Below, one piece after another: positions 29,069 to 62,165 of a DNA stretch of 64,000 nt. The notes under the pieces were generated by a model. That model was given only the letters and a program-made list of their open reading frames with translations, was not told the DNA's origin and made no database searches. This DNA is from Streptomyces vietnamensis. Its GTDB lineage: Bacteria; Actinomycetota; Actinomycetes; Streptomycetales; Streptomycetaceae. Within the stretch, counting starts at the first letter, position 1, and each line of letters starts with the position of its first letter. The translations under genes were made by a program, and so were the position numbers. The DNA lies in the NCBI RefSeq assembly GCF_000830005.1, contig NZ_CP010407.1, forward strand, positions 5,212,001 to 5,276,000. The letters are read 5' to 3'.

Positions 29069-29082
29069 TCTACGCGCGTTAC
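29069..29082. promoter_or_regulatory. Nucleoside-regulon operator, site 1
   Basis: TCTACGCGCGTTAC has the core ACGCGCGT of the palindrome CTACGCGCGTAG with one arm mismatch. It lies 61 bp before the BMP lipoprotein start. Five other nucleoside units in the window have the same motif. Confidence 0.65.
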
Positions 29083-29143
29083 GATCGCCGCGAAACCAGC
29101 GCCGGAAGAGGCGCTTTCGGTCAGTCTTGAAGGGACCCTCCTC

Positions 29144-30202
29144 TTGCGCCGGATCACCAGGATCACGACCGTGGGCATCGCCTCTGCGGCGCTCGCGCTC
29201 TCCGCCACCGCCTGTGGCAAGTCGTCGAACAACACGGGCTCCAGCCCGTCCTCGTCCTCGCAGGCGACCAAGGTCGCCCTCGCGTACGACATCGGCGGCC
29301 GCGGCGACCAGTCCTTCAACGACGCCGCCTACGCCGGCATGAAGAAGGCCGAGGACGAGCTCGGCGTCAAGGGCTCCGAGGCCGAGCCGTCGCAGGGCGA
29401 GAGCGACGCCGACAAGGTCGCGCGCCTCACCTCGCTGGCCCGCGCCGGCAACAACCCGGTCATCGGCGTCGGCTTCTCCTACGCCCCGGCCATCGCGAAG
29501 GTCGCCAAGGCCTTCCCGAAGACCACGTTCGGCCTCATCGACGACACCTCGGTGACCGCCCCGAACATCGCCAACCTGGTCTTCAACGAGGAGCAGGGCT
29601 CCTACCTGGCCGGCGTCGCCGCCGCCAAGACCTCGAAGACCGGCACCGTCGGCTTCATCGGCGGCGTCGAGGTTCCGCTGATCAAGAAGTTCGAGGCGGG
29701 CTTCACGCAGGGCGTCAAGGACACCAACCCCAAGGCGAAGGTGCTCACCCAGTACCTGACCCAGCCGCCGAACTTCGACGGCTTCTCGAAGCCCGACCTC
29801 GGCAAGGCCGCCGCGCAGGGCCAGCTCGACAAGGGCGCCGACGTGATCTACGCCGCCGCCGGTCTGGCCGGTTCCGGCTCGATCGAGGCCGCCGCGACCG
29901 CCGGCAAGTGGGCCATCGGCGTCGACTCCGACCAGTACAACCAGTCGGGTCTGTCCTCGTACAAGGACCACATCCTGACCTCGGTCACCAAGAACGTCTC
30001 GGGCTCCGTCTTCAACCTGATCAAGTCGGTCAAGGACGGCAAGCCGGAGTCCGGTGAGATCCGCTACGGCCTCGCCACGGACGGCGTCGGCCTGGCCGAC
30101 TCCAACCCGGCGTACAAGAAGATGACCGACGTCATCGCCGCCGTGGACGCCGCGAAGAAGAACATCGTCGACGGCAAGATCACGGTCAAGACCGCTCCGT
30201 AA
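29144..30202 (+). CDS. BMP-family nucleoside-binding lipoprotein
   Basis: The 352-aa protein is the substrate-binding component of a nucleoside ABC importer. It has a lipoprotein signal with Cys24 (SATACGKS), a Ser-rich linker, and the BMP/Med fold (VALAYDIGGRGDQSFNDAAY, NLVFNEEQGSYLAGVAAA, GADVIYAAAGLAGSGSIEAA, WAIGVDSDQYNQ). The start is TTG 29144 with AAGGGA eight bases upstream. It reads towards the ATPase and permease genes, separated by a hairpin and a second operator, so it may be made in excess of the membrane parts. Confidence 0.95.
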   Translation: MRRITRITTVGIASAALALSATACGKSSNNTGSSPSSSSQATKVALAYDIGGRGDQSFNDAAYAGMKKAEDELGVKGSEAEPSQGESDADKVARLTSLARAGNNPVIGVGFSYAPAIAKVAKAFPKTTFGLIDDTSVTAPNIANLVFNEEQGSYLAGVAAAKTSKTGTVGFIGGVEVPLIKKFEAGFTQGVKDTNPKAKVLTQYLTQPPNFDGFSKPDLGKAAAQGQLDKGADVIYAAAGLAGSGSIEAAATAGKWAIGVDSDQYNQSGLSSYKDHILTSVTKNVSGSVFNLIKSVKDGKPESGEIRYGLATDGVGLADSNPAYKKMTDVIAAVDAAKKNIVDGKITVKTAP

Positions 30203-30234
30203 GGACACCCAGGTCACGACCTGAGCCCGGGCCT

Positions 30235-30264
30235 GGGATCCGGTGGCACCCCCCGCCGGATCCC
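30235..30264 (+). terminator. Hairpin after lipoprotein gene
   Basis: GGGATCCGG (30235-30243) pairs with CCGGATCCC (30256-30264), 9 bp with a 12-nt loop, 33 bp after the lipoprotein stop. It probably terminates or attenuates transcription into the ATPase gene. Confidence 0.7.
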
Positions 30265-30309
30265 GGGCCCTGGGCCCATTCCCGTACGGGTTTTCATTTT
30301 TCGGCAGCG

Positions 30310-30321
30310 CTACGCGCGTAG
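30310..30321. promoter_or_regulatory. Nucleoside-regulon operator, site 2
   Basis: CTACGCGCGTAG is a perfect 12-bp palindrome. It lies about 16 bp before a likely -10 (GATAAC, 30337-30342) and 75 bp before the probable ATPase start, which places it at the -35 region, as expected for a repressor site. Confidence 0.75.
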
Positions 30322-30396
30322 ATGTCTCCCTGGCACGATAACTTCGCCCCGCCCTGCCCTCCCGCTCCCACTCCTTCCGGCCAAGGAGAGTGCGTC

Positions 30397-32027
<1,631 letters not shown>

Positions 32028-32031
<4 letters not shown>

Positions 32032-33143
32032 TGAAATTCGACAAGGACAAGCTGATCATCGGGGCCGCCGGCCCGGTGCTCGCCCTGGTCACCTCCTTCG
32101 TGCTCACCGTCCTGGTGCTGCTCGCGACGGGCCTGGACCCGATCGAGCCGATCCGGCTGATGATCGACAACGCCGGGTACTCCGACGTCCAGGTCCTCAT
32201 CGTCAACCAGACGGGGATCTACTACCTGGCAGCGCTGGCCGTGGCCATCGGCTTCCGGATGAACCTCTTCAACATCGGCGTCGAGGGCCAGTACCGCCTC
32301 GCCGCGATGGTCTCGGCGCTGGTGGGTGCGGCCATCGACCTGCCCGGCCCGCTGCACATCCTGGTCATCGTGCTCGTCGCCATCGCGACCGGCGCCCTCT
32401 GGGCCGGTATCGCGGGCATCCTGAAGACCACCCGCGGTGTCTCCGAGGTCGTCTCCACGATCATGCTCAACGCCATCACCACCTCCCTGGTGGCCTGGCT
32501 GATCCTGCCGAAGAACTTCGGCGTCCAGCCCGCCGGCTCCAACGACCTCACCACCGGTCAGATCCCCGAGTCCGGCTGGTTCCCCGGCATCGACATGGGC
32601 GAGGGCGGCCAGATCTACGGCTTCACCTTCGTCGCGCTCGCGCTCGGCGTCGTCTACTGGTTCATGCTCAACCGCACGCGCTTCGGCTTCGACCTGCGCG
32701 CCACCGGTGAGAGCGAGTCCGCGGCCCAGGCCAGCGGCGTCGACGCCAAGAAGATGATCCTCACCGCGATGCTGATCTCGGGCGGCCTCGCCGGTCTGGC
32801 CGGCATGCCGATCCTGCTCGGCGAGTCGCACACGTACAGCCTGGCCTTCCCGGTCAACGTCGGCTTCACCGCCATCACCGTCGCGCTGCTCGGCCGCAAC
32901 CACCCGGTCGGCATCCTCTTCTCGGCCCTCCTCTTCGCGTTCCTCGACAAGGCGTCCTCCAGCCTGGACGTCGAGGGTTACCCGAAGGAGATCACCGAGA
33001 TCATGCAGGGCATCATCGTGATCGCCGTGGTCGTCTCCTACGAGCTCGTCCGCCGTTACGGCCTCCGCCGCCAGCAGCAGAAGGTCGGCGAGGAGCTCGC
33101 CGCCGGCGGCGCCATCAAGACCGACAAGGAGGTGGCGGCATGA
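32028..33143 (+). CDS. Nucleoside ABC transporter permease 1
   Basis: The 371-aa membrane protein belongs to the BPD_transp_2 permeases of BMP-type importers, with about nine hydrophobic helices and the conserved block FNIGVEGQYRLAAMVSALVG. The EAA-like cytoplasmic region reads TGESESAAQASGVDAKK. It pairs with the next permease to form the channel. ATG 32028 overlaps the ATPase stop by four bases, and its own stop overlaps the next start by four, so all the importer genes are translationally coupled. Confidence 0.95.
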
Positions 33144-34402
33144 GCACCGGCACCGTTGCCAAGCCGAGCGCCGCGCCCAAGAAGGCCGGACGCCGCAAGC
33201 TGACCTGGCCCTGGATCCTGCTGATCGTCGCGGCCGGTCTCGTCCTCTTCTCGCTCGTCCGCGTCGTCTCCGGGGCCGACGACCTCACCTCCGTCGGCCA
33301 GATCTCCGGCGCGCTCCAGCTCGCCGTGCCGATCGCCATGGCCGGTCTCGGCGGTCTGTGGTCCGAGCGCGCGGGCGTCGTCAACATCGGCCTCGAAGGC
33401 ATGATGGTCCTCGGCACCTGGTTCGGCGCCTGGGCCGGCTACCAGTGGGGCCCGTGGACGGGTGTCGTCGTCGGCATCCTCGGCGGCGCGGTCGGCGGTC
33501 TGCTGCACGCGATCATCACCGTCACGTTCAACGTGAACCACATCGTCTCCGGTGTGGCGATCAACATCCTCGCGGTCGGCTTCACCAAGTACCTGTCGAA
33601 CTTCACCTTCGACAAGGCCGAGGGCGGTTCCTCCAAGCAGTCCCCGCGCATCGACCCGATCACCGACATCACCATCCCGGGGCTCTCCGACTGGCTGGCG
33701 GACCTCCACGGCAAGCACTGGTTCCTGATCTCGGACCTCGCCGGCATCCTCGGCGGCCTGGTCACCAACCTGTCGGTGCTCACGATCGTGGCCGCCCTGC
33801 TCATCCCGGCCACCTGGTGGGTGCTGTGGCGCACGGCCTTCGGCCTGCGGCTGCGCTCCTGCGGTGAGAACCCGGTCGCCGCCGAGTCCCTCGGCGTCAA
33901 CGTCTACAAGTACAAGTACATCGCCGTCGTCGTCTCCGGCGGCCTCGCCGGCCTCGGCGGCGCGTTCCTCGCGATCGTCTCCACCGGCATCTACCAGGAG
34001 GGCCAGACCGGCGGCCGCGGCTACATCGGTCTCGCCGCCATGATCTTCGGCAACTGGATGCCCGGCGGCATGGCCATGGGCGCCGGCCTCTTCGGCTTCA
34101 CCGACAGCCTCAAGCTGCGCGGCGGCGCCGAGAACGTCCACGCGCTCCTCCTGCTCGTCGCGCTGCTCCTGGTGATCGCCGCCGCGTGGCAGCTGTACAA
34201 GAAGAAGTACATCCCGGCGGTCATCGCCGCGGTCTTCTCCGTCGGCTTCTTCCTCTGGTACGCGCTGACCGACCAGGTCCCGAGCCAGTTCGTCGACGCC
34301 GCCCCGTACATCACCACGCTGCTCGTGCTCGCCCTCTCGGCGCAGCGCCTGCGGATGCCCAAGGCGGACGGCCTGCCGTACCGGAAGGGCCAGGGCAAGT
34401 GA
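33140..34402 (+). CDS. Nucleoside ABC transporter permease 2
   Basis: The 420-aa protein is the second BPD_transp_2 permease. After a Lys-rich cytoplasmic tail it has about ten helices and the conserved segments LWSERAGVVNIGLEGMMVLG, VNHIVSGVAINILAVG and SCGENPVAAESLGVNVYKYK. Compared with permease 1 it has an extra C-terminal hydrophobic part. It overlaps its upstream partner by ATGA and the cytidine deaminase gene by GTGA, which ties uptake to the first catabolic step. Confidence 0.95.
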   Translation: MSTGTVAKPSAAPKKAGRRKLTWPWILLIVAAGLVLFSLVRVVSGADDLTSVGQISGALQLAVPIAMAGLGGLWSERAGVVNIGLEGMMVLGTWFGAWAGYQWGPWTGVVVGILGGAVGGLLHAIITVTFNVNHIVSGVAINILAVGFTKYLSNFTFDKAEGGSSKQSPRIDPITDITIPGLSDWLADLHGKHWFLISDLAGILGGLVTNLSVLTIVAALLIPATWWVLWRTAFGLRLRSCGENPVAAESLGVNVYKYKYIAVVVSGGLAGLGGAFLAIVSTGIYQEGQTGGRGYIGLAAMIFGNWMPGGMAMGAGLFGFTDSLKLRGGAENVHALLLLVALLLVIAAAWQLYKKKYIPAVIAAVFSVGFFLWYALTDQVPSQFVDAAPYITTLLVLALSAQRLRMPKADGLPYRKGQGK

Positions 34403-34803
34403 CGCCCGCCGCTGCGGAACCCGACTGGGAGCTGCTCCGGGAGACCGCCCGCGAGGCGATGTCCCACGCGTACGCCCCGTACTCGGGCTATCCGGTCGGC
34501 GCGGCGGCCCTCGTGGACGACGGGCGGGTGATCTCCGGCTGCAACGTGGAGAACGCCTCCTTCGGCCTCGGCCTGTGCGCCGAGTGCGGGCTCGTCTCGC
34601 AGCTCCAGGCGACCGGCGGCGGCCGGCTCACGCACTTCGTGTGCGTGGACGGGCGGGGCGAGTCCCTGGTCCCGTGCGGGCGCTGCCGGCAGCTCCTGTA
34701 CGAGTTCGGGGGCCCCGAACTGGTCCTGGAGACGCCCGCCGGGTTCCTCACCCTGGCGGACATGCTTCCGCAGGCCTTCGGGCCCGGCCACCTCGCCAAG
34801 TAG
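34399..34803 (+). CDS. cdd: Cytidine deaminase
   Basis: Cytidine deaminase converts cytidine and deoxycytidine to uridine and deoxyuridine. The 134-aa protein is the usual length of the tetrameric type. It contains PYSGYPVGAAALVDDG, CNVENASFGLGLCAECGLVS (Cys and catalytic Glu of the CAE motif) and PCGRCRQLLYEFGG with the other two zinc ligands. GTG 34399 overlaps the permease stop (GTGA). It is the last gene of the importer operon and supplies substrate for thymidine phosphorylase downstream. Confidence 0.96.
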   Translation: MTPAAAEPDWELLRETAREAMSHAYAPYSGYPVGAAALVDDGRVISGCNVENASFGLGLCAECGLVSQLQATGGGRLTHFVCVDGRGESLVPCGRCRQLLYEFGGPELVLETPAGFLTLADMLPQAFGPGHLAK

Positions 34804-34859
34804 CACCTCGGAGCGACCCTTCCGGCACGATGGGAGGGTCGCTCCCCTTTCCTCCCCCC

Positions 34860-34873
34860 TCTATGCGCGTAGA
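34860..34873. promoter_or_regulatory. Nucleoside-regulon operator, site 3
   Basis: TCTATGCGCGTAGA matches the palindrome with one change (T for C). It ends 12 bp before the deoA start, directly upstream of its AGAGG ribosome site, so it overlaps the leader or transcription start. Confidence 0.7.
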
Positions 34874-34885
34874 AAGAGGCACACC

Positions 34886-36163
34886 ATGGACGTCATCTCC
34901 GTCATCCGCACCAAGCGGGACAAGGGCGAGCTGAGCCCCGAGCAGATCGACTGGGTCATCGACGCGTACACCCGCGGCGAGGTCGCCGACGAGCAGATGT
35001 CCGCCCTGGCCATGGCCATCCTGCTGAACGGCATGAACCGCGCGGAGATCGCCCGCTGGACCGCCGCGATGATCGCGTCCGGCGAGCGCATGAACTTCGA
35101 CTCCCTCTCCCGGCCGACCGCCGACAAGCACTCCACCGGCGGCGTCGGCGACAAGATCACCCTCCCGCTCGCCCCGCTCGTCGCCGCCTGCGGCGCGGCC
35201 GTGCCGCAGCTCTCCGGCCGCGGCCTCGGCCACACGGGCGGCACGCTCGACAAGCTGGAGTCCATCCCCGGCTGGCGCGCCCTGCTCTCCAACGAGGAGA
35301 TGCTGCACGTCCTCGACACCACGGGCGCGGTCATCTGCGCGGCGGGCGACGGCCTGGCCCCCGCGGACAAGAAGCTGTACGCGCTCCGCGACGTGACGGG
35401 CACGGTGGAGGCGATCCCGCTGATCGCCTCGTCGATCATGTCGAAGAAGATCGCCGAAGGCACCGGCTCCCTGGTCCTGGACGTCAAGGTCGGCACCGGC
35501 GCCTTCATGAAGAACATCGAGGACGCGCGCGAGCTGGCGCGGACGATGGTCGGCCTCGGCACGGACAGCGGCGTGAAGACGGTCGCCCTCCTCACCGACA
35601 TGTCGACCCCGCTCGGCCTCACCGCGGGCAACGCCCTCGAGGTCCGCGAGTCCGTCGAGGTCCTCGCCGGCGGCGGCCCGAAGGACGTCGTCGACCTCAC
35701 GATCGCCCTCGCGGCCGAGATGCTGGCCGCCGCCGGCATCAAGGACGCCGACCCGGCGAAGGCCCTCGCGGACGGCTCGGCGATGGACGTCTGGCGCCGG
35801 ATGATCGCGGCCCAGGGCGGCGACCCGGACGCGACCCTCCCGGTCGCCCGCGAGCAGCACGTCGTCACGGCCCCGTCGACCGGTGTCCTGACCCGCCTCG
35901 ACGCGTACGACATCGGCATCGCCGCCTGGCGCCTGGGCGCGGGCCGCGCCCGCAAGGAGGACCCGGTGCAGGCGGGCGCGGGCGTCGAGCTCCACGCGAA
36001 GCCGGGCGACACGGTGACGGCGGGCCAGCCGCTCCTCACCCTCCACACGGACACCCCGGAGAAGTTCGACTACGCCCTGAAGTCCCTGGAGTCGGCCTGG
36101 GACATCGCGGCCCCGGGCACGGAGTTCACCCCGAACCCGATCGTCCTGGACCGCATCGCATAG
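34886..36163 (+). CDS. deoA: Thymidine phosphorylase
   Basis: DeoA splits thymidine (and related pyrimidine deoxynucleosides) into base and deoxyribose 1-phosphate. The 425-aa protein has the family signature SGRGLGHTGGTLDKLESIPG and the phosphate-binding KHSTGGVGDK, a middle alpha/beta domain, and a C-terminal domain ending TEFTPNPIVLDRIA. Length is normal. Ribosome site AGAGG precedes ATG 34886. It has its own operator, 34860-34873, although it lies only 82 bp after cdd. Confidence 0.96.
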   Translation: MDVISVIRTKRDKGELSPEQIDWVIDAYTRGEVADEQMSALAMAILLNGMNRAEIARWTAAMIASGERMNFDSLSRPTADKHSTGGVGDKITLPLAPLVAACGAAVPQLSGRGLGHTGGTLDKLESIPGWRALLSNEEMLHVLDTTGAVICAAGDGLAPADKKLYALRDVTGTVEAIPLIASSIMSKKIAEGTGSLVLDVKVGTGAFMKNIEDARELARTMVGLGTDSGVKTVALLTDMSTPLGLTAGNALEVRESVEVLAGGGPKDVVDLTIALAAEMLAAAGIKDADPAKALADGSAMDVWRRMIAAQGGDPDATLPVAREQHVVTAPSTGVLTRLDAYDIGIAAWRLGAGRARKEDPVQAGAGVELHAKPGDTVTAGQPLLTLHTDTPEKFDYALKSLESAWDIAAPGTEFTPNPIVLDRIA

Positions 36164-36223
36164 GCATATGCCTAAGACACCTTCGGGTGAACGGGACCGG
36201 TGGACCCCTGCCGGTCCCGTTCG
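36161..36223 (+). terminator. Terminator after deoA
   Basis: GAACGGGACCGG (36190-36201) pairs perfectly with CCGGTCCCGTTC (36212-36223), 12 bp with a 10-nt loop. The palindrome TAGGCATATGCCTA (36161-36174) begins at the deoA stop codon and may add to it. Confidence 0.85.
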
Positions 36224-36263
36224 GCATGCTGGGATCGGTGACACATCGACAGAGGAGACCGCC

Positions 36264-36854: not shown

Positions 36855-36882
36855 ACAGCAGTACCCGGTCACGCCCCTGGCG

Positions 36883-38151: not shown

Positions 38152-38173
38152 CGGGTCCACACCCCACTCACCC

Positions 38174-43016: not shown

Positions 43017-43028
43017 CTACGCGCGTAG
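43017..43028. promoter_or_regulatory. Nucleoside-regulon operator, site 4
   Basis: CTACGCGCGTAG is a perfect 12-bp palindrome, 16 bp before the add start at 43045, so it overlaps the expected transcription start or leader. Confidence 0.75.
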
Positions 43029-43044: not shown

Positions 43045-44199
43045 ATGACGAGCCAGACCCCCAACGTCCCCACCGCGGACCAGATCCGCCGTGCCCCGAA
43101 GGTGCTGCTCCACGACCACCTCGACGGCGGACTGCGCCCCGGCACGATCATCGAACTCGCCCGGGAGCAGGGCTACGAGCAGCTCCCCGAGACGGAGCCC
43201 GACAAGCTCGGCATCTGGTTCCGCGAAGCCGCCGACTCCGGCTCCCTGGAGCGGTACCTGGAGACCTTCGCGCACACCTGCGCCGTCATGCAGACCAGGG
43301 ACGCCCTCTTCCGCGTCGCCGCCGAGTGCGCCGTCGACCTCGCCGAGGACGGCGTCGTCTACGCCGAGGTGCGCTACGCCCCCGAGCAGCACCTGGAGGG
43401 CGGTCTCACCCTCGAAGAGGTCGTGGAGGCCGTCAACGAGGGCTTCCGCGAGGGCGAGCGGCAGGCCAGGGCCAACGGCCACCGCATCCGGGTCGGCGCC
43501 CTGCTCACCGCCATGCGGCACGCCGCCCGCGCCCTGGAGATCGCCGAACTCGCCAACCGCTACCGCGACTCCGGCGTCGTCGGCTTCGACATCGCGGGCG
43601 CCGAGGCCGGCTACCCGCCCACCCGCCACCTCGACGCCTTCGAGTACCTCAAGCGGGAGAACAACCACTTCACCATCCACGCGGGCGAGGCCTTCGGACT
43701 CCCCTCGATCTGGCAGGCGCTCCAGTGGTGCGGCGCCGACCGGCTCGGCCACGGCGTCCGCATCATCGACGACATCGAGGTCGCCGACGACGGCTCGGTC
43801 CGCCTCGGCCGCCTCGCGTCCTACGTCCGCGACAAGCGCATCCCGCTGGAGATGTGCCCCTCCTCCAACCTCCAGACCGGCGCCGCCGCCTCGATCGCCG
43901 AGCACCCCATCGGCCTGCTCCGCACGCTCCACTTCCGGGCCACGGTCAACACCGACAACCGGCTCATGAGCGGGACGAGCATGAGCCGGGAATTCGAGCT
44001 GCTGACCGAGGCATTCGCTTACACGCTCGACGACATGCAGTGGTTCACTGTCAATGCGATGAAATCAGCGTTCATTCCTTTCGATGAACGACTCGCCATG
44101 ATCAACGAGGTCATCAAGCCCGGCTATGCCGAGCTGAAGTCCGAATGGCTGTTCCAGCAGACCGCAACGACCAGGGAGTCTTCCCGCACGGCGGACTGA
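43045..44199 (+). CDS. add: Adenosine deaminase
   Basis: Add converts adenosine and deoxyadenosine to inosine and deoxyinosine. The 384-aa protein has the zinc HxH in [12 protein letters not shown], catalytic residues in TIHAGEAFG and [12 protein letters not shown], and the late SSNLQTGA and [13 protein letters not shown]. Length is that of actinobacterial family members. Inosine would pass to the phosphorylase at 61269-62072. It is a single-gene unit with its own operator and a terminator at 44224-44254. Confidence 0.96.
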
Positions 44200-51219: not shown

Positions 51220-51227
51220 TGCGGCGG

Positions 51228-52118
51228 CTAGTAGGACGAGCCGCTCGCGCCCAGCGAACCCGTGGGGTGCCAGACCGTCTTCGTCTCCAGGAACGCGGTC
51301 ATGCGGTCCGTGCCCGGGGACTCGGCGAAGTCCTCGGTACGGGGGCGCAGGACGCGCTTCAGGTTGTCCGCCGCCGCGATCTCCAGGTCGCGGGCCAGAT
51401 CGGTGTCCGCGCCCGTCAGGTCGATCGCGTTGACGTCCTGGTGGGCCGCGAGGTGCGGGCCCATCTCGGCGGCCTTGCCGGAGAGGATGTTCACCACGCC
51501 GCCGGGGAGGTCGGAGGTGGCCAGGACCTCGCCCAGGGAGAGCGCCGGGAGCGGGGCCTTCTCGCTCGCGATGACGACGGCCGTGTTGCCCGTCGCGATC
51601 ACCGGGGCGATCACCGAGACCAGGCCCAGGAAGGACGAGTCCTGGGGGGCGACCACCGTGACGACGCCCGTCGGCTCCGGGGTCGACAGGTTGAAGTACG
51701 GGCCCGCCACCGGGTTCGCGCCGCCCACGACCTGGGCGATCTTGTCGGTCCAGCCCGCGTACCAGACCCAGCGGTCGATCGCCGCGTCGACGACCACGGC
51801 CGCCTTCGACTTCGACAGGCCCTCCGCGTCCGCGACCTCGCGGACGAACTGGTCCCGGCGGCCCTCCAGCATCTCGGCGACGCGGTAGAGGATCTGGCCG
51901 CGGTTGTACGCGGTCGCGCCCGCCCAGCCGCCGAAGGCCTTGCGGGCCGCGACGACCGCGTCACGCGCGTCCTTGCGGGAGGAGAGCGGCGCGTTCGCCA
52001 GCCACTTGCCCTTCGAGTCGCTCACCTCGTACACCCGGCCGCTCTCGGAGCGGGGGAACTTGCCCCCGACGTACAGCTTGTAGGTCTTGAAGACACTGAG
52101 GCGCGTCTGATCAGACAT
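51228..52118 (-). CDS. Short aldehyde dehydrogenase-family protein without active-site half
   Basis: The 296-aa protein matches the N-terminal cofactor-binding part of aldehyde dehydrogenases (YKLYVGGKFPRSESGRVYEV, NRGQILYRVAEMLEGR, TGVVTVVAPQDSSFLGLVSV, ATGNTAVVIASEKAPLPALS, LPGGVVNILSGKAAEMGPHL). It ends before the region that holds the catalytic Cys and Glu. The last residues, GSLGASGSSY, do not look like a random truncation. ATG 52118 overlaps the upstream full-length gene by eight bases. A role as a non-catalytic partner subunit is inferred. Confidence 0.85.
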   Translation of the reverse strand: MSDQTRLSVFKTYKLYVGGKFPRSESGRVYEVSDSKGKWLANAPLSSRKDARDAVVAARKAFGGWAGATAYNRGQILYRVAEMLEGRRDQFVREVADAEGLSKSKAAVVVDAAIDRWVWYAGWTDKIAQVVGGANPVAGPYFNLSTPEPTGVVTVVAPQDSSFLGLVSVIAPVIATGNTAVVIASEKAPLPALSLGEVLATSDLPGGVVNILSGKAAEMGPHLAAHQDVNAIDLTGADTDLARDLEIAAADNLKRVLRPRTEDFAESPGTDRMTAFLETKTVWHPTGSLGASGSSY

Positions 52119-53547
52119 CGAGGTAGGCCTCCAGACCGTGGCGGCCGCCCTCGCGGCCGAAGCCCGACTCCTTGTAGCCGCCGAAGGGCGAGGTCGGGTC
52201 GAACTTGTTGAACGTGTTGGCCCAGACGACACCGGCCCGGAGCTTGTTGGCGACCGCGAGGATGCGGGAGCCCTTCTCCGTCCAGATGCCCGCCGACAGG
52301 CCGTACTGGCTGTTGTTGGCCTTCGCGACGGCCTCGTCGGGCGTACGGAAGGACAGCACCGACAGGACCGGGCCGAAGATCTCGTCGCGGGCGATCCGGT
52401 GCGCCTGCGTGACGCCCGTGAAGAGCGTCGGGGCGAACCAGTAACCGGCCGACGGGATCTCGCACGCGGCGGTCCAGCGCTCGGCGCCCTCCGCCTCGCC
52501 CTGCTCCACGAGGGAGGTGATGCGGGCCAGCTGCTCCGAGGAGTTGATGGCGCCGATGTCGGTGTTCTTGTCGAGCGGGTCGCCGAGGCGGAGCGTCGAC
52601 AGGCGGCGCTTCAGGCTGTCAAGGAGCTCGTCCTGGATCGACTCCTGGACGAGGAGGCGTGAGCCCGCGCAGCAGACCTGGCCCTGGTTGAAGAAGATGC
52701 CGTTGACGATGCCCTCGACGGCCTGGTCGATCGGGGCGTCGTCGAAGACGATGTTGGCGCCCTTGCCGCCCAGCTCCAGGGTCACCTTCTTGTGCGTGCC
52801 GGCGATCGAGCGGGCGATCGACTTGCCGACCGCCGTCGAGCCGGTGAAGGCCACCTTGTTCACGTCCGGGTGCTCGACCAGTGCGGCGCCCGTCTCCCCG
52901 TACCCGGGAAGGATGTTGACGACGCCCTTCGGCAGCCCGGCCTGGCGGCAGATGTCCGCGAAGAACAGGGCGGAGAGCGGGGTCGTCTCGGCCGGCTTCA
53001 GGACGACCGTGTTGCCGGTCGCGAGCGCCGGGGCGATCTTCCACGCCAGCATCAGGAGGGGGAAGTTCCACGGGATGACCTGGCCGGCCACGCCCAGCGG
53101 CTTCGGGTTCGGCCCGTAGCCCGCGTGGTCGAGCTTGTCGGCCCAGCCCGCGTAGTAGAAGAAGTGCGCGGCGACCAGCGGGAGGTCCGCGTCGCGGGTC
53201 TCCTTGATCGGCTTGCCGTTGTCCAGGGTCTCCAGGACGGCCAGCTCGCGGCTGCGCTCCTGGATGATCCGGGCGATCCGGAAGAGGTACTTGGCGCGCT
53301 CGGAGCCGGGCAGCGCCGACCACTTCTCGAAGGCCCTGCGTGCCGCCTTCACCGCGCGGTCGACGTCCTCGGCGCCCGCCTGGGCGATCTCGGAGAGGAC
53401 TTCCTCGCTGGACGGCGAGACGGTCTTGAAGACCTTGCCGTCGGCCGCGTCGACGAACTCGCCGTCGATGAACAGGCCGTAGTTCGGCGCGATGTCGACG
53501 ATGGAGCGCGACTCAGGTGCCGGTGCGTACTCGAATGCAGATGCCAT
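52111..53547 (-). CDS. Aldehyde dehydrogenase, full length
   Basis: The 478-aa NAD(P)-dependent enzyme oxidises aldehydes to acids. It has the cofactor and active-site motifs QVIPWNFPLLMLAWKIAPAL, FTGSTAVGKSIA, catalytic Glu in TLELGGKGANIV, and nucleophile Cys in FNQGQVCCAGSRL, then EIFGPVLSVLSFRT and NTFNKFDPTSPFGGYKESGF. It starts 5 bp downstream of deoC (stop 53553). DeoC yields acetaldehyde, so oxidation of acetaldehyde is a plausible role. That is inference from gene order. Confidence 0.94.
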   Translation of the reverse strand: MASAFEYAPAPESRSIVDIAPNYGLFIDGEFVDAADGKVFKTVSPSSEEVLSEIAQAGAEDVDRAVKAARRAFEKWSALPGSERAKYLFRIARIIQERSRELAVLETLDNGKPIKETRDADLPLVAAHFFYYAGWADKLDHAGYGPNPKPLGVAGQVIPWNFPLLMLAWKIAPALATGNTVVLKPAETTPLSALFFADICRQAGLPKGVVNILPGYGETGAALVEHPDVNKVAFTGSTAVGKSIARSIAGTHKKVTLELGGKGANIVFDDAPIDQAVEGIVNGIFFNQGQVCCAGSRLLVQESIQDELLDSLKRRLSTLRLGDPLDKNTDIGAINSSEQLARITSLVEQGEAEGAERWTAACEIPSAGYWFAPTLFTGVTQAHRIARDEIFGPVLSVLSFRTPDEAVAKANNSQYGLSAGIWTEKGSRILAVANKLRAGVVWANTFNKFDPTSPFGGYKESGFGREGGRHGLEAYLDV

Positions 53548-53552
53548 GTTGA

Positions 53553-54512
53553 TCAGTCCACCGTCACGTAATCGGGGCCGGAGTAGCGGCCGGTCGCCAG
53601 CTTCTGGCGCTGCATCAGCAGGTCGTTGAGCAGGCTGGAAGCGCCGAAGCGGAACCAGTGGTTGTCCAGCCAGTCCTCACCCACGGTCTCGTTGACGAGA
53701 ACCAGGAACTTGATCGCTTCCTTGGTGTTGCGGATGCCGCCGGCCGGCTTCACGCCGATCTGCACGCCGGTCTGCGCGCGGAAGTCGCGCACGGCCTCCA
53801 GCATGAGGAGGGTGTTCGCCGGGGTGGCGTTGACCGCGACCTTGCCGGTCGAGGTCTTGATGAAGTCCGCGCCGGCCATCATGCCGAGCCAGGAGGCGCG
53901 GCGGATGTTGTCGTACGTGGAGAGCTCGCCGGTCTCGAAGATCACCTTGAGGCGGGCGCGGTCGCCGCACTCCGCCTTGATCGCGGCGATCTGCTCGTAC
54001 ACCTCCATGTACCGGCCGGCGAGGAAGGCGCCACGGTCGATGACCATGTCGATCTCGTCGGCGCCGGCGGCGATCGCGTCGGCGGTGTCGGCCAGCTTCA
54101 CGGGGAGCGCGGCGCGCCCGGCCGGGAAGGCGGTGGCGACCGAGGCGACCTTGACGCCCGAGCCCGCGACGGCGGCCTTGGCGGTGGCCACCATGTCGGG
54201 GTAGACGCAGACGGCGGCCGTCTTCGGGGTCGTGCGGTCGGTCGGATCGGGGTTGACGGCCTTGGCGGCGAGCGCCCGGACCTTGCCCGGGGTGTCCGCG
54301 CCTTCGAGAGTCGTCAGGTCGATCATGGAAATGGCCAGGTCGATGGCGTACGCCTTGGCCGTGGTCTTGATCGAGCGGGTGCCGAGGGACGCGGCGCGCG
54401 CCTCCAGGCCGACGGCGTCGACGCCGGGCAGCCCGTGGAGGAAGCGGCGCAGCGCACTGTCGGACGTGGTCACGTCGGCGAAAGCGGAAGCTGCGGTTGC
54501 AGTGGTGGGCAT
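53553..54512 (-). CDS. deoC: Deoxyribose-phosphate aldolase
   Basis: DeoC splits 2-deoxyribose 5-phosphate into glyceraldehyde 3-phosphate and acetaldehyde, the end step of deoxynucleoside catabolism. The 319-aa protein is the longer type, with an N-terminal extension, the Schiff-base Lys in DFIKTSTGKVAVNATPAN, AGADEIDMVIDRGAFLAG and KPAGGIRNTKEAIKF. ATG 54512 has only a weak ribosome site. The regulon operator lies 20 bp upstream. The two aldehyde dehydrogenase genes follow on the same strand, giving an operon deoC-ald-ald. Confidence 0.95.
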   Translation of the reverse strand: MPTTATAASAFADVTTSDSALRRFLHGLPGVDAVGLEARAASLGTRSIKTTAKAYAIDLAISMIDLTTLEGADTPGKVRALAAKAVNPDPTDRTTPKTAAVCVYPDMVATAKAAVAGSGVKVASVATAFPAGRAALPVKLADTADAIAAGADEIDMVIDRGAFLAGRYMEVYEQIAAIKAECGDRARLKVIFETGELSTYDNIRRASWLGMMAGADFIKTSTGKVAVNATPANTLLMLEAVRDFRAQTGVQIGVKPAGGIRNTKEAIKFLVLVNETVGEDWLDNHWFRFGASSLLNDLLMQRQKLATGRYSGPDYVTVD

Positions 54513-54531
54513 GGTCACCAGTCGAGCATAT

Positions 54532-54543
54532 CTACGCGCGTAG
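54532..54543. promoter_or_regulatory. Nucleoside-regulon operator, site 5
   Basis: CTACGCGCGTAG is a perfect 12-bp palindrome, 20 bp upstream of the minus-strand deoC start at 54512. Confidence 0.75.
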
Positions 54544-54764
54544 CGACCTGTACAGGGGAGCCCCTTCATGGAGCCCGAGGTCACAGGGGGGCCGACGGCG
54601 TGGTGACTCCTGTCACATGGCCGTGACGTGGAGCGGACGGCTCCCGCATACAAGATCTTTAGATTTTCATCAGCAGCCAGCGAGAACTCACCGGCCCTCC
54701 CCGAGGAGATGTCAGCGGCATGCGGCTCTTCCTCATCCGCCACCGAATCTCTTCGGGAGTCGTT

Positions 54765-56183: not shown

Positions 56184-56383
56184 CCCGTACGGTCTCGGCC
56201 GCCCGCGTCTGACCCGTACGGTCTCGGCCGACCGCGTCTGACCTGTACGGTCTCGGCCGACCGCGTCTGACCTGTACGGTCTCGGCCGCCCGCGCCTGAC
56301 CCCTACGGTCCCGGCCGCCCGTGTCCGAGTCGTACGGTCCCGGCCGCCCGCGTCCGAGTCGTACGGTCCCGGCCGACCGCGCC
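56181..56383. repeat. 29-bp tandem repeat, seven units
   Basis: Units begin at 56181, 56210, 56239, 56268, 56297, 56326 and 56355, each about TGACCCGTACGGTCTCGGCC plus GCCCGCGTC with small changes, and a partial eighth starts at 56384. The first unit starts at the stop codon of the surface protein. There are no spacers. The remaining gap to 56628 is GC-rich and shows no gene. Confidence 0.9.
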
Positions 56384-56628
56384 TGACCCGCCCGGCGCCC
56401 TTGCCGGAGGGCCCGTGCCGGGCGCTCCGGCAAGCGCGCCGGGCGCTCCGGGCCTCCCCGTCCCTTGACCCGAGCGGGAGCACGCCCCATCCCGGGCCGG
56501 TCGCCGCGTCCCGCGCGGCGGCCGGCCCGGACCCGTCCGCCCGGAGCCCGCGCACCCCGTCCCGTCCCGGGCCCGCATGCCGCGCGGGACCGGGCGTCAC
56601 CCCGTCCCGTCCCGTCCGGAGTCCTCCC

Positions 56629-57273
56629 GTGAGCCGTCGCCCCGCTCGTACTCGTACCCGTACCGCTTCCGTCCTCCTCGTGGCCGCACTCGCCGCGCTC
56701 ACGGGCTGCGCCGCAGGAGGGGACGCCACCCCGCCCGCCCGGATCTCGCAGGCGACTGCCACCGCCACCGCCACCGCCCCCACGCCCGCGTCGGAGACGG
56801 TGGCGCCGCTCGCCCGGTCCCTGCCCGTGCGGGTGCGGCTGCCCGCCGCCGGGGTCGACGCCCGCCCGATCCTCGACCTGGGCCTGAACGCCGACGGCAC
56901 CGTCGAGGTGCCCTCCGTCGCCCAGGCCGACCGCATCGGCTGGTACGACAAGGGCGTCACGCCCGGCGAGACCGGCCCCGCCGTCCTCATCGGCCACTTC
57001 GACACCGTCCGCGGCCCCGCCGTCCTCAAGAACGTCTCCAAGGTCCGGATCGGCGACGAGATCACCGTGACCCGCGCCGACGGCACGACCGCCGTCTTCC
57101 GGGTCCGGGAGCTGGAGCAGGTCGACAAGGACGCCTTCCCGACGGCCAAGGTGTACGGGAACACCACCCGCCCCGAGCTGCGCCTCGTCACCTGCGGCGG
57201 GGAGCTGGTCGACGGCCACAGGCCCGACAACATCATCGTGTACGCGGATCTCGTGGCCGCGCAGGCCGCCTGA
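56629..57273 (+). CDS. Class F sortase with lipoprotein signal
   Basis: Class F sortases are transpeptidases of actinobacteria thought to attach surface proteins. The 214-aa protein has a signal peptide with a lipobox-like LTGC (Cys27), a Thr/Ala linker, and a sortase domain with VLIGHFDT (His), RLVTCGG (Cys189) and Arg198 in DGHRPDN. GTG 56629 follows CCGGAG. It is 445 bp after the surface protein gene, with a repeat array between, and reads in the same direction as the PH-domain gene. Confidence 0.92.
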   Translation: MSRRPARTRTRTASVLLVAALAALTGCAAGGDATPPARISQATATATATAPTPASETVAPLARSLPVRVRLPAAGVDARPILDLGLNADGTVEVPSVAQADRIGWYDKGVTPGETGPAVLIGHFDTVRGPAVLKNVSKVRIGDEITVTRADGTTAVFRVRELEQVDKDAFPTAKVYGNTTRPELRLVTCGGELVDGHRPDNIIVYADLVAAQAA

Positions 57274-57307
57274 GCCCCCACCCGCCCGCTGAGGCACAAT
57301 CGGCGGC

Positions 57308-58000
57308 ATGACGACCCCCGAGCCGACCCCCGAGCCCAGCCACGAGCCGAGCCGCGAGTCGACCCCCGCCCCCGAGCAGCCGTCCGCCGCACCGGCTCCC
57401 GCCGACAAGGTCTACCGGTCGCCCCTCGGGGTCGCGAGCGGGGTCTTCCTGGTGATCCTCGCGGCCTTCTTCGCCGGCGACGCGATGGTCCGCGGCGAGG
57501 GCCGCACGCCCTGGCTCGCGCTCGCGGGCCTCGTCCTCGCCGTCCCGCTGATCATCGCCTTCACGATCCGGCCCGCCGTGTACGCCAACGACGACCGGCT
57601 CCGGATCCGCAACCCGTTCCGGTCGATCACGCTGCCCTGGGCCACGGTCGCCGACGTCCGCGCCGGCTACTCCAGCGAGGTCTTCACGCAGGAGGGCGCC
57701 AAGTACCAGCTGTGGGCGATCCCCGTCTCGCTGCGCCAGCGGAAGAAGGCCGCCCGCCAGGCCGCCCGCGCCTCCCAGGACGATCCGCACGGCCGCACCT
57801 CCGTCACCGCCGACGTACGGGACAGCGCCTCCCGGATCGCGCCCAGCGACAAGACCGTCGCCGAGCTGCGCGAGCGCGCCGAGCTGCGCGCCGGGACCCC
57901 GGGCGCGCAGGGCGAGCCGCAGGTGCGCTGGGCGTACGAGATCGTCGGCCCCGCGCTGGCCGGGCTGCTGCTCGTCGTGATCCTGCTCGCGACGGGCTGA
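57308..58000 (+). CDS. PH-domain membrane protein
   Basis: The 230-aa protein begins with a Pro/Glu-rich cytoplasmic tail, has two membrane helices (about 40-60 and 70-90), then a bacterial PH-like domain (IRPAVYANDDRLRIRNPFRS, ITLPWATVADVRAGYSSEVF) and a C-terminal helix (about 209-229). Such proteins are common in Streptomyces and have no established function. It follows the sortase gene by 35 bp and may share its transcript. Its stop is 7 bp from that of the convergent gene. Confidence 0.82.
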   Translation: MTTPEPTPEPSHEPSRESTPAPEQPSAAPAPADKVYRSPLGVASGVFLVILAAFFAGDAMVRGEGRTPWLALAGLVLAVPLIIAFTIRPAVYANDDRLRIRNPFRSITLPWATVADVRAGYSSEVFTQEGAKYQLWAIPVSLRQRKKAARQAARASQDDPHGRTSVTADVRDSASRIAPSDKTVAELRERAELRAGTPGAQGEPQVRWAYEIVGPALAGLLLVVILLATG

Positions 58001-58006
58001 GCCCGC

Positions 58007-59155
58007 TCACGGGGCCCCGCCCCACACCAGGAGCATGTGGCCGCCCAGCCACGCCGAGGACAGCGCCGCCCCCGTGAGGACGAGGGCGGCGACGTGCCGG
58101 CGGGCGCGGGCGATCCCCACGGCGAGCGGCAGCAGCAGCGGGAAGCCCGGCAGCAGGAAGCGGGCGCGCGGGAACCAGACGCCGTCGCTGCCGAGGACCA
58201 CGAGCAGCAGCACCCCCGTGAACACGAGCAGCGGCAGCGGCTGCCGGTCCGCGAGACAGCACGCGTACAGGGCGGCGGACAGCAGCAGCACCGCCGAGAC
58301 GACGGACAGGAAGAACGACGGGGACGGGCTGTGGACGAGGTAGCGCCGCAGCTCCCGCAGGGTCACCGCGCCCCCGTCCCACGCGTTCCCCCAGCGCCGC
58401 TGCACCTCGAAGTACCCGTCCCAGCGCCCCCGCACCAGCGCCACCCACCCCACGTACCCGAGCCACCCGAGGGGTGCCGCCAGGGCGGCGGCCAGGGCCC
58501 GCCGCTCGCGCCGGGCGGCCAGGAGCCCCGCCGTACAGACCGCCGCCGCGACCGCGAGCCCGGTCGGCCGGGTGAGACCGGCGGCCACCGCGAGCCCGGC
58601 CGCCCACGCCCGGCGCCCGCCGAGCACCGCGTACAGGGCCCAGGCGGCCAGCGCCGTGAACAGCGACTCCGTGTACCCCATCCACTCCACGGCGGCCACC
58701 GGCGAAGCACCCCACAGGACCGCGAGGACCGTGCCCGTCCGGCGCCCGTGCAGCCGGTCGCCGACCGCGAACACCCCCCAGGCGGCGACCAGCGAGCACA
58801 CCACCGCGAGCCCGAGCGCGACCGAGGCGCGGGAACCGGGGAGGACCGCGGAAAGCCCCCGGACGAGCCCCGGGAAGAGCGGGAAGAAGGCGAGGTTCCG
58901 GGGGTAGCCCGGCTGGTCCGTGTATCCGTGCCCGGCGATGTCCAGGTACCAGAGCGAGTCCCACGTACGGGCGAGCAGCGGCCACAGGCCGTGGCCCCGC
59001 AGATGCGCCCAGCGGGCGAGCACCGCGAGCCCCAGGAGCCGTACCGCCAGGAAACCGAGCAGCGCCGGGGCCGCGTGCCGCAGCGCGCCGCGCCCGGGGG
59101 CGGCGGGGGCGGCGGTACGGGGGGTGGGGACGTACGGCACGGGGGTGACGGACAC
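58007..59155 (-). CDS. Polytopic GT-C-like mannosyltransferase
   Basis: The 382-aa protein has about ten hydrophobic helices. It contains TWDSLWYLDIAGHGYTDQPG after the first helix, as in PIG-V/GPI mannosyltransferase-like GT-C enzymes, with the acidic residue in a luminal-type loop, and EWMGYTESLFTALAAWAL. It is inferred to transfer a sugar from a lipid-linked donor on the outer face of the membrane. GTG/ATG context places the start at 59155. The acceptor is unknown. It converges with the PH-domain gene. Confidence 0.85.
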   Translation of the reverse strand: MSVTPVPYVPTPRTAAPAAPGRGALRHAAPALLGFLAVRLLGLAVLARWAHLRGHGLWPLLARTWDSLWYLDIAGHGYTDQPGYPRNLAFFPLFPGLVRGLSAVLPGSRASVALGLAVVCSLVAAWGVFAVGDRLHGRRTGTVLAVLWGASPVAAVEWMGYTESLFTALAAWALYAVLGGRRAWAAGLAVAAGLTRPTGLAVAAAVCTAGLLAARRERRALAAALAAPLGWLGYVGWVALVRGRWDGYFEVQRRWGNAWDGGAVTLRELRRYLVHSPSPSFFLSVVSAVLLLSAALYACCLADRQPLPLLVFTGVLLLVVLGSDGVWFPRARFLLPGFPLLLPLAVGIARARRHVAALVLTGAALSSAWLGGHMLLVWGGAP

Positions 59156-59232
59156 CGGGTCACCCTGGCGCGCGCCCCCGGCGCGCGGTCCACGCGTTAC
59201 GTCACGTGCCGTACGGGGTTCACCCGTACGGG

Positions 59233-59270
59233 CGAGGGCCCGTACGGAATCACTCCCGTACGGGCCCTCG
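59233..59270. terminator. Terminator after the phosphosugar mutase gene
   Basis: CGAGGGCCCGTACGG (59233-59247) pairs with CCGTACGGGCCCTCG (59256-59270), 15 bp with an 8-nt loop, 39 bp after the minus-strand stop at 59309. A tandem 16-bp duplication (GACGTCCTACAG twice, 59288-59314) covers the stop codon. Confidence 0.88.
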
Positions 59271-59308
59271 TCGGTGTGTCACATCCCGACGTCCTACAGG
59301 CCGACGTC

Positions 59309-60961
59309 CTACAGTCCGGCGGCCTCGGACAGGTCCCGCTTGATCGCGGCGAGGACCTCGGCGCCCGTCGCGCGGGCCGTCGCCAGCTCGCTGCCGTCGC
59401 CGACCGGGACGACGACCTCCAGGTAGCACTTGAGCTTGGGCTCGGTGCCGGAGGGGCGGACGATCACCCGGGCCTTGTAGTCGCCCTCCAGGTGGTAGCG
59501 GAGCCCGTCCGTCGGCGGCAGGGACTCCGTGCCCTTCGTCAGGTCCTCGGCCGAGACGACCGTCAGACCGGCGAGCCGGACCGGGGGCCGCTCGCGGAGC
59601 GTGGCCATCGCGTTCGCGATGATCGACAGGTCCTCGACCCGCACCGACAGCTGGTCCGTCGCGTGCAGACCGTGCGCCACCGCCAGGTCGTCGAGCAGGT
59701 CGGTGAGCGTGCGGCCCTGCTCCTTGAGCACCGAGGCCAGCTCGGTGACGAGCAGCGCCGCCGTGATGCCGTCCTTGTCGCGGACGCCCTCCGGGTCGAC
59801 GCAGTAGCCGAGCGCCTCCTCGTAGCCGTACCGGAGTCCGTCGACGCGGGCGATCCACTTGAAGCCGGTCAGCGTCTCCTCGTAGCCGACGCCCGCGGCC
59901 TCGGCGATCCGGCCGAGGAGGGACGAGGACACGATCGACTCGGCGAACACGCCGGTGGCGCCCTTGTGCACGAGGTGCGCGGCGAGCAGCGCGCCGACCT
60001 CGTCGCCGCGGAGCATCCGCCAGCCGCCCTCGGCGTCCGCGTCCGGGACGGCCACGGCGCAGCGGTCGGCGTCCGGGTCGTTCGCGATGACGAGGTCGGG
60101 GTCCACGGCCCGGGCGGCCTCGAAGGCCAGGTCCATGGCGCCCGGCTCCTCCGGGTTAGGGAAGGCGACCGTCGGGAACGCCGGGTCCGGCTCGGCCTGC
60201 TCGGCGACGAGCGCGGGCGGCGGGAAGCCGGCCCGGCCGAACGCGGCCGTCAGGACCTCCTTGCCGACGCCGTGCATGGCCGTGTAGACGGTCCGCGCGG
60301 TCCGGGGGGAGCCGGGGGTCAGGACGGCGTCCGTACGCTCCAGGTAGGCCTCCAGGACCTCGTCCCCGAGCACCTCCCAGCCCTCGGAGGCGCGGGGCAC
60401 GTCGTTCAGCGAGCGGATCGCGTCGATCTCGGCGGCGATCTCCGCGTCGGCCGGCGGCACGATCTGCGAGCCGTCGCCCAGGTAGACCTTGTAGCCGTTG
60501 TCGCGCGGCGGGTTGTGGCTCGCGGTCACCTCGACACCGGCGACGGCGCCCAGATGCCTTATGGCGTACGCGAGGACGGGCGTCGGCAGCGGGCGCGGGA
60601 GCAGCGCGGCGCGCAGCCCGGCGGCGGTCATCACGGCGGCGGTGTCGCGGGCGAAGTCGACGGACTTGTAGCGGGCGTCGTAGCCGACGACGACGAGGCC
60701 GCCGGTCCGGCCCTTGGCCTTGAGGTACGCGGCGAGTCCTGCGGCCGCGCGGATGACGACCGAGCGGTTCATCCGCATGGGCCCGGCGCCGAGCTCACCA
60801 CGGAGCCCGGCCGTGCCGAACTGCAGCGTGCCGCTGAAACGGGCGGCGAGCTCGTCGGTGGCGCCGGCCTCGATGAGCCGCGCGAGCTCCTCGCGGGTCT
60901 CGCTGTCGGGGTCCTCGGCGAGCCAGGCCTGGGCCCGGGTGAGGAGATCGTCCTGCGTCAC
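59309..60961 (-). CDS. Phosphohexo/phosphopentomutase
   Basis: The 550-aa protein has the alpha-D-phosphohexomutase motifs: phospho-Ser in TASHNPPRDNGYKVY, metal-binding NDPDADRCAVA, a substrate loop EEALGYCVDPEGVRDKDG, and phosphate-binding RPSGTEPKLKC. Members of this type include phosphomannomutase, phosphoglucomutase and the PGM2-like phosphopentomutases. It lies beside the purine nucleoside phosphorylase, so conversion of (deoxy)ribose 1-phosphate to the 5-phosphate is the inferred role. GTG 60961 has GAAAGG upstream. No regulon operator is directly upstream. Confidence 0.92.
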   Translation of the reverse strand: MTQDDLLTRAQAWLAEDPDSETREELARLIEAGATDELAARFSGTLQFGTAGLRGELGAGPMRMNRSVVIRAAAGLAAYLKAKGRTGGLVVVGYDARYKSVDFARDTAAVMTAAGLRAALLPRPLPTPVLAYAIRHLGAVAGVEVTASHNPPRDNGYKVYLGDGSQIVPPADAEIAAEIDAIRSLNDVPRASEGWEVLGDEVLEAYLERTDAVLTPGSPRTARTVYTAMHGVGKEVLTAAFGRAGFPPPALVAEQAEPDPAFPTVAFPNPEEPGAMDLAFEAARAVDPDLVIANDPDADRCAVAVPDADAEGGWRMLRGDEVGALLAAHLVHKGATGVFAESIVSSSLLGRIAEAAGVGYEETLTGFKWIARVDGLRYGYEEALGYCVDPEGVRDKDGITAALLVTELASVLKEQGRTLTDLLDDLAVAHGLHATDQLSVRVEDLSIIANAMATLRERPPVRLAGLTVVSAEDLTKGTESLPPTDGLRYHLEGDYKARVIVRPSGTEPKLKCYLEVVVPVGDGSELATARATGAEVLAAIKRDLSEAAGL

Positions 60962-61041
60962 GGTGTGCCTTTCGGGGGTGCGGGGCGGGGGTGCGGTGGG
61001 AGGGTGCGGGTGCGGGTACGTGGGCCGCTGCGCGGAGCCTT

Positions 61042-61240
61042 CCCCCACCCCGCCCCTTCCCGAAACCGGGGCTCCGCCCCGGACCCCGCGCCTCAAACTC
61101 CCCCTACGCCTGGCGGCGTGGGGGGACCCCCGGGCGGAAACTTCAGCCCGTCCGGCGTTTGAGGACACGCCCGAAGGGCGTACGGGGGCCCGGGGGCTTG
61201 CCCCCGGTTCGGGAAGGGGCGGGGTGGGGAAGAGGCCCCG
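61042..61240. repeat. Dispersed-type intergenic inverted repeat
   Basis: The 60962-61268 gap has no gene. CTTCCCCCACCCCGCCCCTT (from 61042) and CCGAAACCGGGGCTCCGCCC pair with GGGGCTTGCCCCCGGTTCGG and GAAGGGGCGGGGTGGGGAAG (to about 61232), and CTCAAA (near 61093) with TTTGAG (near 61160). It resembles a repeat often seen between Streptomyces genes, from memory. Confidence 0.7.
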
Positions 61241-61268
61241 CGCAGCGGCCCCGCACCCACCGCGACCG

Positions 61269-62072
61269 TCAGATCCGGTCGAGGACCCGCGTCAGCAGCT
61301 CACCCATCCGCGCCGCCGAGTCGCGCCCCGCCTGGAGCACCTCCTCGTGGTTCAGCGGCTCGCCCGAGAGCCCCGCCGCCAGGTTGGTGACGAGCGAGAT
61401 GCCGAGGACCTCGGCGCCGGCCTCGCGGGCCGCGATGGCCTCCAGGACGGTGGACATGCCGACGAGGTCGCCGCCGAGGACGCGGACCATGTTGATCTCG
61501 GCCGGGGTCTCGTAGTGCGGGCCGGGGAACTGGACGTACACGCCCTCCTCCAGCGTCTCGTCGACCTCCTTGCACAGCGCGCGCAGGCGCGGCGAGTACA
61601 GGTCGGTGAGGTCCACGAAGTTCGCGCCGACGATCGGGGAGGCGGCCGTCAGGTTGATGTGGTCGCTGATGAGGACCGGCTGGCCGGGGCGCATGCCCTC
61701 GCGGAGGCCGCCGCAGCCGTTGGTGAGGATGACGGTCTTGCAGCCGGCGGCGACGGCGGTGCGGACGCCGTGGGCGACGGAGGCGACGCCCCGGCCCTCG
61801 TAGAAGTGGGTGCGGCCGAGGAAGACGAGCGCGCGCTTCTCGCCGATCTTGTACGAGCGGACCTTGCCGCCGTGGCCCTCGACGGCCGGCGGCGGGAAGC
61901 CGGGGAGCTCGGTCACCGGGAACTCGGCCTCGGGGGCGCCGAGGGCGTCGACGGCGGGGGCCCAGCCGGAGCCCATGACCAGGACGACGTCGTGGTTCTC
62001 GACACCGGTCAGCTCGCGAAGACGTGCGGCAGCGGCCTCGGCGGCCTCGTACGGGGTGGCAGTTGCGTTCAC
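61269..62072 (-). CDS. Purine-nucleoside phosphorylase, trimeric type
   Basis: PNP converts inosine, guanosine and their deoxy forms to base and (deoxy)ribose 1-phosphate. The 267-aa protein matches the PNP/MTAP family: [80 protein letters not shown] and [14 protein letters not shown], then [20 protein letters not shown]. It uses inosine from adenosine deaminase. It has its own operator 82 bp upstream of ATG 62072. Confidence 0.95.
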
Positions 62073-62153
62073 TGACTCTCTCGCCTCGGGGAGGGGGGTC
62101 CGAGGGGAACCCCGGACGGATTTGGTACGCGAAGCAGCGTAGCCGGAGAATTC

Positions 62154-62165
62154 CTACGCGCGTAG
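62154..62165. promoter_or_regulatory. Nucleoside-regulon operator, site 6
   Basis: CTACGCGCGTAG is a perfect 12-bp palindrome upstream of the purine-nucleoside phosphorylase gene (minus strand, start 62072). The remaining 62166-62253 stretch shows no gene. Confidence 0.75.

Follow-up and report, generated by a model that had tools for sequence, protein, structure and literature searches.

A palindrome conserved in Streptomycetaceae as a putative operator for nucleoside salvage and purine supply

Known nucleoside and purine regulons

In Escherichia coli, the DeoR and CytR regulons carry one set of operators before deoC, deoA, the purine-nucleoside phosphorylase gene (PNP), cdd and the genes for nucleoside uptake. 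The Streptomyces locus described here has the same layout, and a candidate regulator encoded close to it contains a DeoR-type sensor domain as E. coli DeoR does. However, the E. coli operator sequence differs from the palindrome CTACGCGCGTAG found at this locus, and the Streptomycetaceae set adds purSQ, a nucleobase permease, a 5'-nucleotidase and a nuclease. Nucleoside transport also has regulators of its own, namely the LysR-type PunR of E. coli and the GntR-type NupR of Bacillus thuringiensis; both are centred on transport, whereas CTACGCGCGTAG is a family-wide palindrome standing at many operons. The PurR box of Bacillus subtilis is not known to be related to CTACGCGCGTAG. The PurR regulon itself joins purine synthesis with purine and nucleoside uptake, according to the accessible part of its description (PMC8789054). 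The set reported here does so too, and differs in including deoxyribose catabolism and extracellular nucleotide breakdown. In Streptomyces, XdhR represses a purine salvage operon; it controls xdh, and the consulted sections of a review of Streptomyces purine metabolism show no link between XdhR and the CTACGCGCGTAG genes or palindrome and contain no mention of purR (PMC6627660).

Excerpts of open-access work on DNA structures and on GapR contain the exact string, and in the open-access papers searched we found neither a description of the motif or its regulon nor any regulator that links nucleoside salvage to purine synthesis in Streptomycetaceae. The regulon is of a known kind and well supported by the data below. 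We consider it probable (about 75%) that one dimeric factor, most likely a repressor, uses CTACGCGCGTAG as its operator to control nucleic-acid scavenging and purine supply across Streptomycetaceae.

The palindrome in the window and in the genome

When up to two mismatches are allowed, CTACGCGCGTAG occurs exactly six times in the window, that is the whole stretch of 64,000 nucleotides analysed here (Table 1), in agreement with the original prediction, made from the sequence alone, of six sites and no other intergenic copy. Its four perfect copies at 30310, 43017, 54532 and 62154 stood, while the two imperfect ones each moved by one nucleotide, from 34860 to 34861 (CTATGCGCGTAG, one mismatch as predicted) and from 29069 to 29070 (CTACGCGCGTTA, two mismatches instead of one). 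The gaps between site and predicted start are, in site order, 62, 0, 13, 16, 19 and 81 bp, where 12–82 bp had been given originally. At the ABC transporter operon the site abuts the first ATG and falls within the extrapolated frame in some relatives, and therefore the true start of the ABC ATPase probably lies downstream of the predicted one. The downstream genes are those named in the prediction, confirmed by Pfam or NCBIfam models for all except deoC, which was recognised by its frame and orthologues; the second aldehyde dehydrogenase that accompanies it was seen as a gene stretch by tblastn.

Table 1. Genes and putative operators in the window
Feature	Position	Strand	Evidence or remark
Imperfect putative operator CTACGCGCGTTA before the BMP lipoprotein gene	29070..29081	+	Same two-mismatch variant in 6/6 clusters
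BMP-family lipoprotein, probable nucleoside-binding protein	29144..30202	+	NCBIfam BMP model, below cut-off; orthologues mapped
Perfect putative operator before the nucleoside ABC operon	30310..30321	+	Conserved across clusters
ABC ATPase and two permeases	30322..34402	+	Models matched below their cut-offs
cdd, cytidine deaminase	34420..34803	+	Pfam PF00383
One-mismatch putative operator CTATGCGCGTAG before deoA	34861..34872	+	Kept in only 2/10 clusters
deoA, thymidine phosphorylase	34886..36163	+	NCBIfam NF004490, over cut-off
Perfect putative operator before add	43017..43028	+	4 nt upstream of TAGAGT, a -10-like hexamer; perfect in 9/9 clusters
add, adenosine deaminase	43045..44199	+	NCBIfam NF006847, over cut-off
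Part of a second aldehyde dehydrogenase gene	51408..52085	-	tblastn, 35% identity to the first
Aldehyde dehydrogenase	52111..53547	-	Pfam PF00171
deoC, deoxyribose-phosphate aldolase	53559..54512	-	Open frame and orthologues; name from reading of the sequence
Perfect putative operator before deoC	54532..54543	-	1 nt upstream of TATGCT
Phosphoglucomutase/phosphomannomutase family, downstream of PNP	59309..61168	-	Pfam; putative phosphopentomutase role
Purine-nucleoside phosphorylase (PNP)	61269..62072	-	NCBIfam TIGR01698, over cut-off
Perfect putative operator before PNP	62154..62165	-	12 nt upstream of TACGCT

At a tolerance of two mismatches, six copies are nothing unusual: shuffled sequences gave a mean of 4.8, and 36 of 100 shuffles reached six. 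The significance of the motif rests instead on the four perfect copies. These are the only ones in the 9.15 Mb genome; all fall inside 32 kb of the window, and each precedes nucleoside genes, namely those of the nucleoside ABC transporter, add, deoC and PNP, so that the genome-wide search bore out the predicted association in four cases out of four. A Markov model predicts approximately 0.48 perfect copies per genome, and the chance of four random places clustering so closely is approximately 2e-7. With up to one mismatch, on the contrary, the genome holds 20 copies against 30 of a control palindrome. Therefore loose matches alone prove nothing, and weak copies were counted only where they are conserved.

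Conservation and target genes in Streptomycetaceae

Perfect copies occur in all 61 sampled Streptomyces genomes; they total 230, whereas the reversed palindrome, which served as control, occurs 37 times. In the wider Streptomycetaceae sample, 100 of 101 genomes and 16 of 17 genera carry a perfect copy; in the one genome without it (G214), deoC and PNP have copies with one and two mismatches. Across the class, the perfect motif was found in 13/13 Streptomyces and in 6/135 other Actinomycetia genomes. In 20 genomes from outside the family most of the nucleoside gene order is retained, and just one of 68 nucleoside promoters there has the motif at two mismatches, none having a better match. No relatives of the nucleoside proteins of the window were found beside the stray outgroup copies, one of which (L060) lies near an arginine deiminase gene. 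Of three copies in a genome of another family (G133), one lies close to a sulfatase gene, one to a transposase gene and one to nothing that our filter recognised; all were taken as chance. On reading the nucleoside clusters of 20 other Actinomycetia, no replacement palindrome stood out. An ATAACGG-like element recurs by eye at the BMP promoters of many other Actinomycetia (L164-L183) and is faintly visible before the BMP gene of the window too; possibly it represents a separate control site of older origin.

We then compared orthologous promoters in eleven Streptomycetaceae clusters, counting matches with up to two mismatches in 6–11 genomes per promoter. Across Streptomyces the motif is kept before the same orthologues, and this extends to basal Streptomycetaceae. 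All nine add promoters have a perfect site; deoC has a site in 11/11 clusters (eight perfect, three with one mismatch), and so does PNP (seven perfect, three with one mismatch and one with two). The BMP promoter carries a site in 6/6 clusters, always in the imperfect form. For the ABC operon the count is 6/7 after removal of one artefact row, the gene scored as a miss in G222 being a homologue of 48% identity. The rows left out (ABCatp of G208, acc2 of G209 and perm1 of G035) had the gene start outside the fetched piece and each gave a false zero-mismatch match, so that the single matches at perm1 and acc2 are artefacts. The deoA site is present in only 2/10 clusters, and thus deoA probably depends mostly on an upstream promoter. 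No site with up to two mismatches was found in the eleven clusters before cdd, perm2, aldh1, lpd, deoR, accA, g39026 or g37180, and the phosphomannomutase family gene (PMM) and the histidine kinase gene g46582 had one each (1/11). In G012, two perfect palindromes lie 70 bp apart at the deoC promoter (L199:2964-3045).

The common link originally proposed, nucleoside uptake and breakdown, holds for all perfect copies of the genome, but the target set proved wider. Among the 16 one-mismatch places in the genome, six are found in front of nucleic-acid metabolism genes or at their very start: deoA, purSQ (L011), a 5'-nucleotidase-like gene (L012), a xanthine/uracil permease gene (L013), a gene for an exo/endonuclease-phosphatase family protein (L221) and a cyclic-nucleotide phosphodiesterase/3'-nucleotidase-like gene (L006), near whose start the site falls inside the predicted frame; the nucleotidase names come from NCBIfam models that were matched with scores under the cut-off. 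The remaining ten places resemble background. One-mismatch copies were noted close to rpoB (L014) and, in L219, between a gene of the MarR family and a GH25 gene.

Four of the six extended targets were followed across genomes. The purSQ promoter has a site with up to one mismatch in 26/30 cases and with up to two in 29/30, showing that de novo purine genes share the site with nucleoside genes. The permease promoter reached 27/30 and 28/30 at the same thresholds. For the 5'-nucleotidase, 22 of 26 loci matched with up to one mismatch and 24 with up to two; the two misses are homologues of 37% and 58% identity, and five of the 30 genomes gave no match. In these three sets each of eight control palindromes appeared at two mismatches in no more than two loci. 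At the nuclease promoter, the best 80 of 462 relatives, all from named genomes, gave 61 sites at two mismatches and 19 loci with none, the controls reaching at most 5.

Perfect copies in other genomes extend the list. One stands at the start of a second adenosine deaminase gene in six genomes (L039, L071, L202, L214, L215 and L217), and others precede a HAD-type (Cof-like) phosphatase gene (L062, L051), purSQ in G174 (L067) and, in two genomes of another genus, a formyltransferase-domain gene that is probably purN (L209, L212). Loci with no evident nucleoside gene also have perfect copies (L205, L206, L210 and L213); at L206, L210 and L213 another near-perfect copy lies about 35 bp away or closer, and genes for family 5 extracellular solute-binding proteins are found near L205 and L213. 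In another genus, G263 and G288 have a perfect site 40–44 bp before the gene of a 573-residue Ig-like-domain protein of unknown function (L208:2999-3010 and L211:2993-3004), and in G011 a perfect site lies 93 bp before a gene for a berberine-bridge-type FAD-binding protein (L204:3000-3011).

Imperfect sites mostly retain a variant typical of their promoter class. The BMP class has CTACGCGCGTTA in 6/6 cases, the 5'-nucleotidase class CTACGCGCGTTG in 21/26, the permease class CTACGCGCGGAG in 23/30 and the nuclease class TGACGCGCGTAG in 55/80 (the best 80 of 462 relatives); in the purSQ class, 19/30 sites have a change at position 4 or 5. Each class-specific variant keeps one half-site perfect. 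Variants with one intact half-site fit the graded affinity that a two-fold symmetric protein would have for them.

Candidate regulator and proposed mode of action

The prediction had noted that no DeoR-type gene was visible; this is true of the window, but one begins 585 bp past its end, at 64585-65547 in extrapolated window coordinates (L016:4585-5547). Its product has HTH_DeoR (PF08220) and DeoRC (PF00455) domains over cut-off. The gene is present in 101/101 Streptomycetaceae genomes, about 2–3 kb from the PNP site in the mapped clusters, and the first 60 residues of the protein are identical in 30/30 loci. In G274 the gene is in two frames (G274:C2:5624202-5625057), reflecting either a sequencing error or a real loss, yet four perfect motif copies are there. 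At E 0.001 a sequence search gave a single solved relative, the E. coli deoxyribose operon repressor 7l6l, which matches the C-terminal part of the candidate (E 8e-8); the candidate falls below the cut-off of the E. coli DeoR equivalog NF007961 (74 bits against 244). SCO4920 is presumably its orthologue in S. coelicolor. In the accessible parts of two studies, SCO4920 is the centre of network module 431, under sigma factors (PMC3224704), and a DeoR-family regulator in a glucose transcriptome table (PMC4848846). We tentatively regard the DeoR-family product as the leading single candidate for the binding protein.

Taken together, a different factor encoded elsewhere and present throughout Streptomycetaceae, for example of the LacI type, has somewhat better odds than this neighbour. 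The palindrome, which is short and gapless and has GCGC at its centre, appears similar to operators of the LacI type, for example that of Streptomyces CebR, and PurR, CytR and RbsR of E. coli are LacI-type regulators. Moreover, the deoR gene lacks a site of its own (0/11 genomes with up to two mismatches), although an operator at the promoter of its own regulator is common and not obligatory. DeoR relatives also occur in other families that lack the motif: homologues of 55–69% identity are found in 11 outgroup genomes, ten of which have no perfect copy, and their helix-turn-helix is very similar in the 10/11 compared. Among these outgroups, G106, G119, G138 and G162 have nucleoside promoters with no site or with at most one weak two-mismatch match, and the homologues do not lie beside nucleoside genes in the 13–20 kb fetched. 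A conserved element before deoR, considered by eye as an operator shared with the outside relatives, found no support in a shuffle test, in which 600, 68 and 211 of 1000 shuffles scored as high. Against a factor encoded elsewhere, the site neighbours searched for protein families, a part of all, revealed as sole regulator gene the MarR-family one near the weak copy L219, which weighs little.

Concerning the direction of control, the site ends 1 nt (deoC), 4 nt (add and 5'-nucleotidase), 12 nt (PNP) or 14 nt (purS) before a TANNNT hexamer, a loose pattern applied to five promoters with no control run, the promoter positions being taken from the sequence only. At these distances the site would overlie either the spacer or the region around -35. 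The add hexamer is only 6 nt from the ATG, and therefore the add message may be leaderless. An activator that switches the genes on through the palindrome would agree with the similar places of the sites near promoters and with several promoters that, on visual reading, have no obvious -35 hexamer; it is nevertheless unlikely, because the distance from site to hexamer varies and several sites would fill the spacer, a position better suited to repression by occlusion than to activation. Since the sites adjoin likely promoter cores, repression would be the simplest mechanism. That the sites share no regulator and arise by chance, from base composition or as structural DNA elements might be argued from the ordinary two-mismatch count in the window and from the commoner control palindrome at one mismatch, and is extremely improbable given that perfect copies and orthologous promoters stand far above the controls and that the conservation tests speak against chance. 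The suggestion that the palindrome is the operator of a dedicated repressor thus came through the genome-wide and conservation tests as a supported, still putative, assignment.

We infer a repressor that acts as a dimer and responds to a ligand. Bound at or beside the promoter core, the factor would block RNA polymerase at add, at PNP with the phosphomutase, at deoC with the aldehyde dehydrogenases, at purSQ and at the genes of the nuclease, the 5'-nucleotidase, the nucleoside ABC transporter and the nucleobase permease. A metabolite of the nucleoside or sugar-phosphate type would then release it. Against this model, a simple nucleoside-induced switch would not need co-repression of purSQ with the salvage genes. 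It is possible, although doubtful, that a single repressor, graded by promoter-specific mismatches, is a master switch of the nucleobase and nucleoside economy in Streptomycetaceae, acting on every stage from the breakdown of nucleic acids and the dephosphorylation of nucleotides, by way of uptake and salvage, to the synthesis of purines.

The question is directly testable now that the site, a candidate gene and nine classes of conserved promoter have been named, and mismatches that persist across genera offer a natural test of how selection tunes operator strength. Streptomyces are the makers of many clinical antibiotics. Purine and nucleotide pools affect the timing of antibiotic production in Streptomyces, according to the consulted sections of the review (PMC6627660). 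If the master switch were true, it would possibly tie the recycling of dying mycelium to growth.
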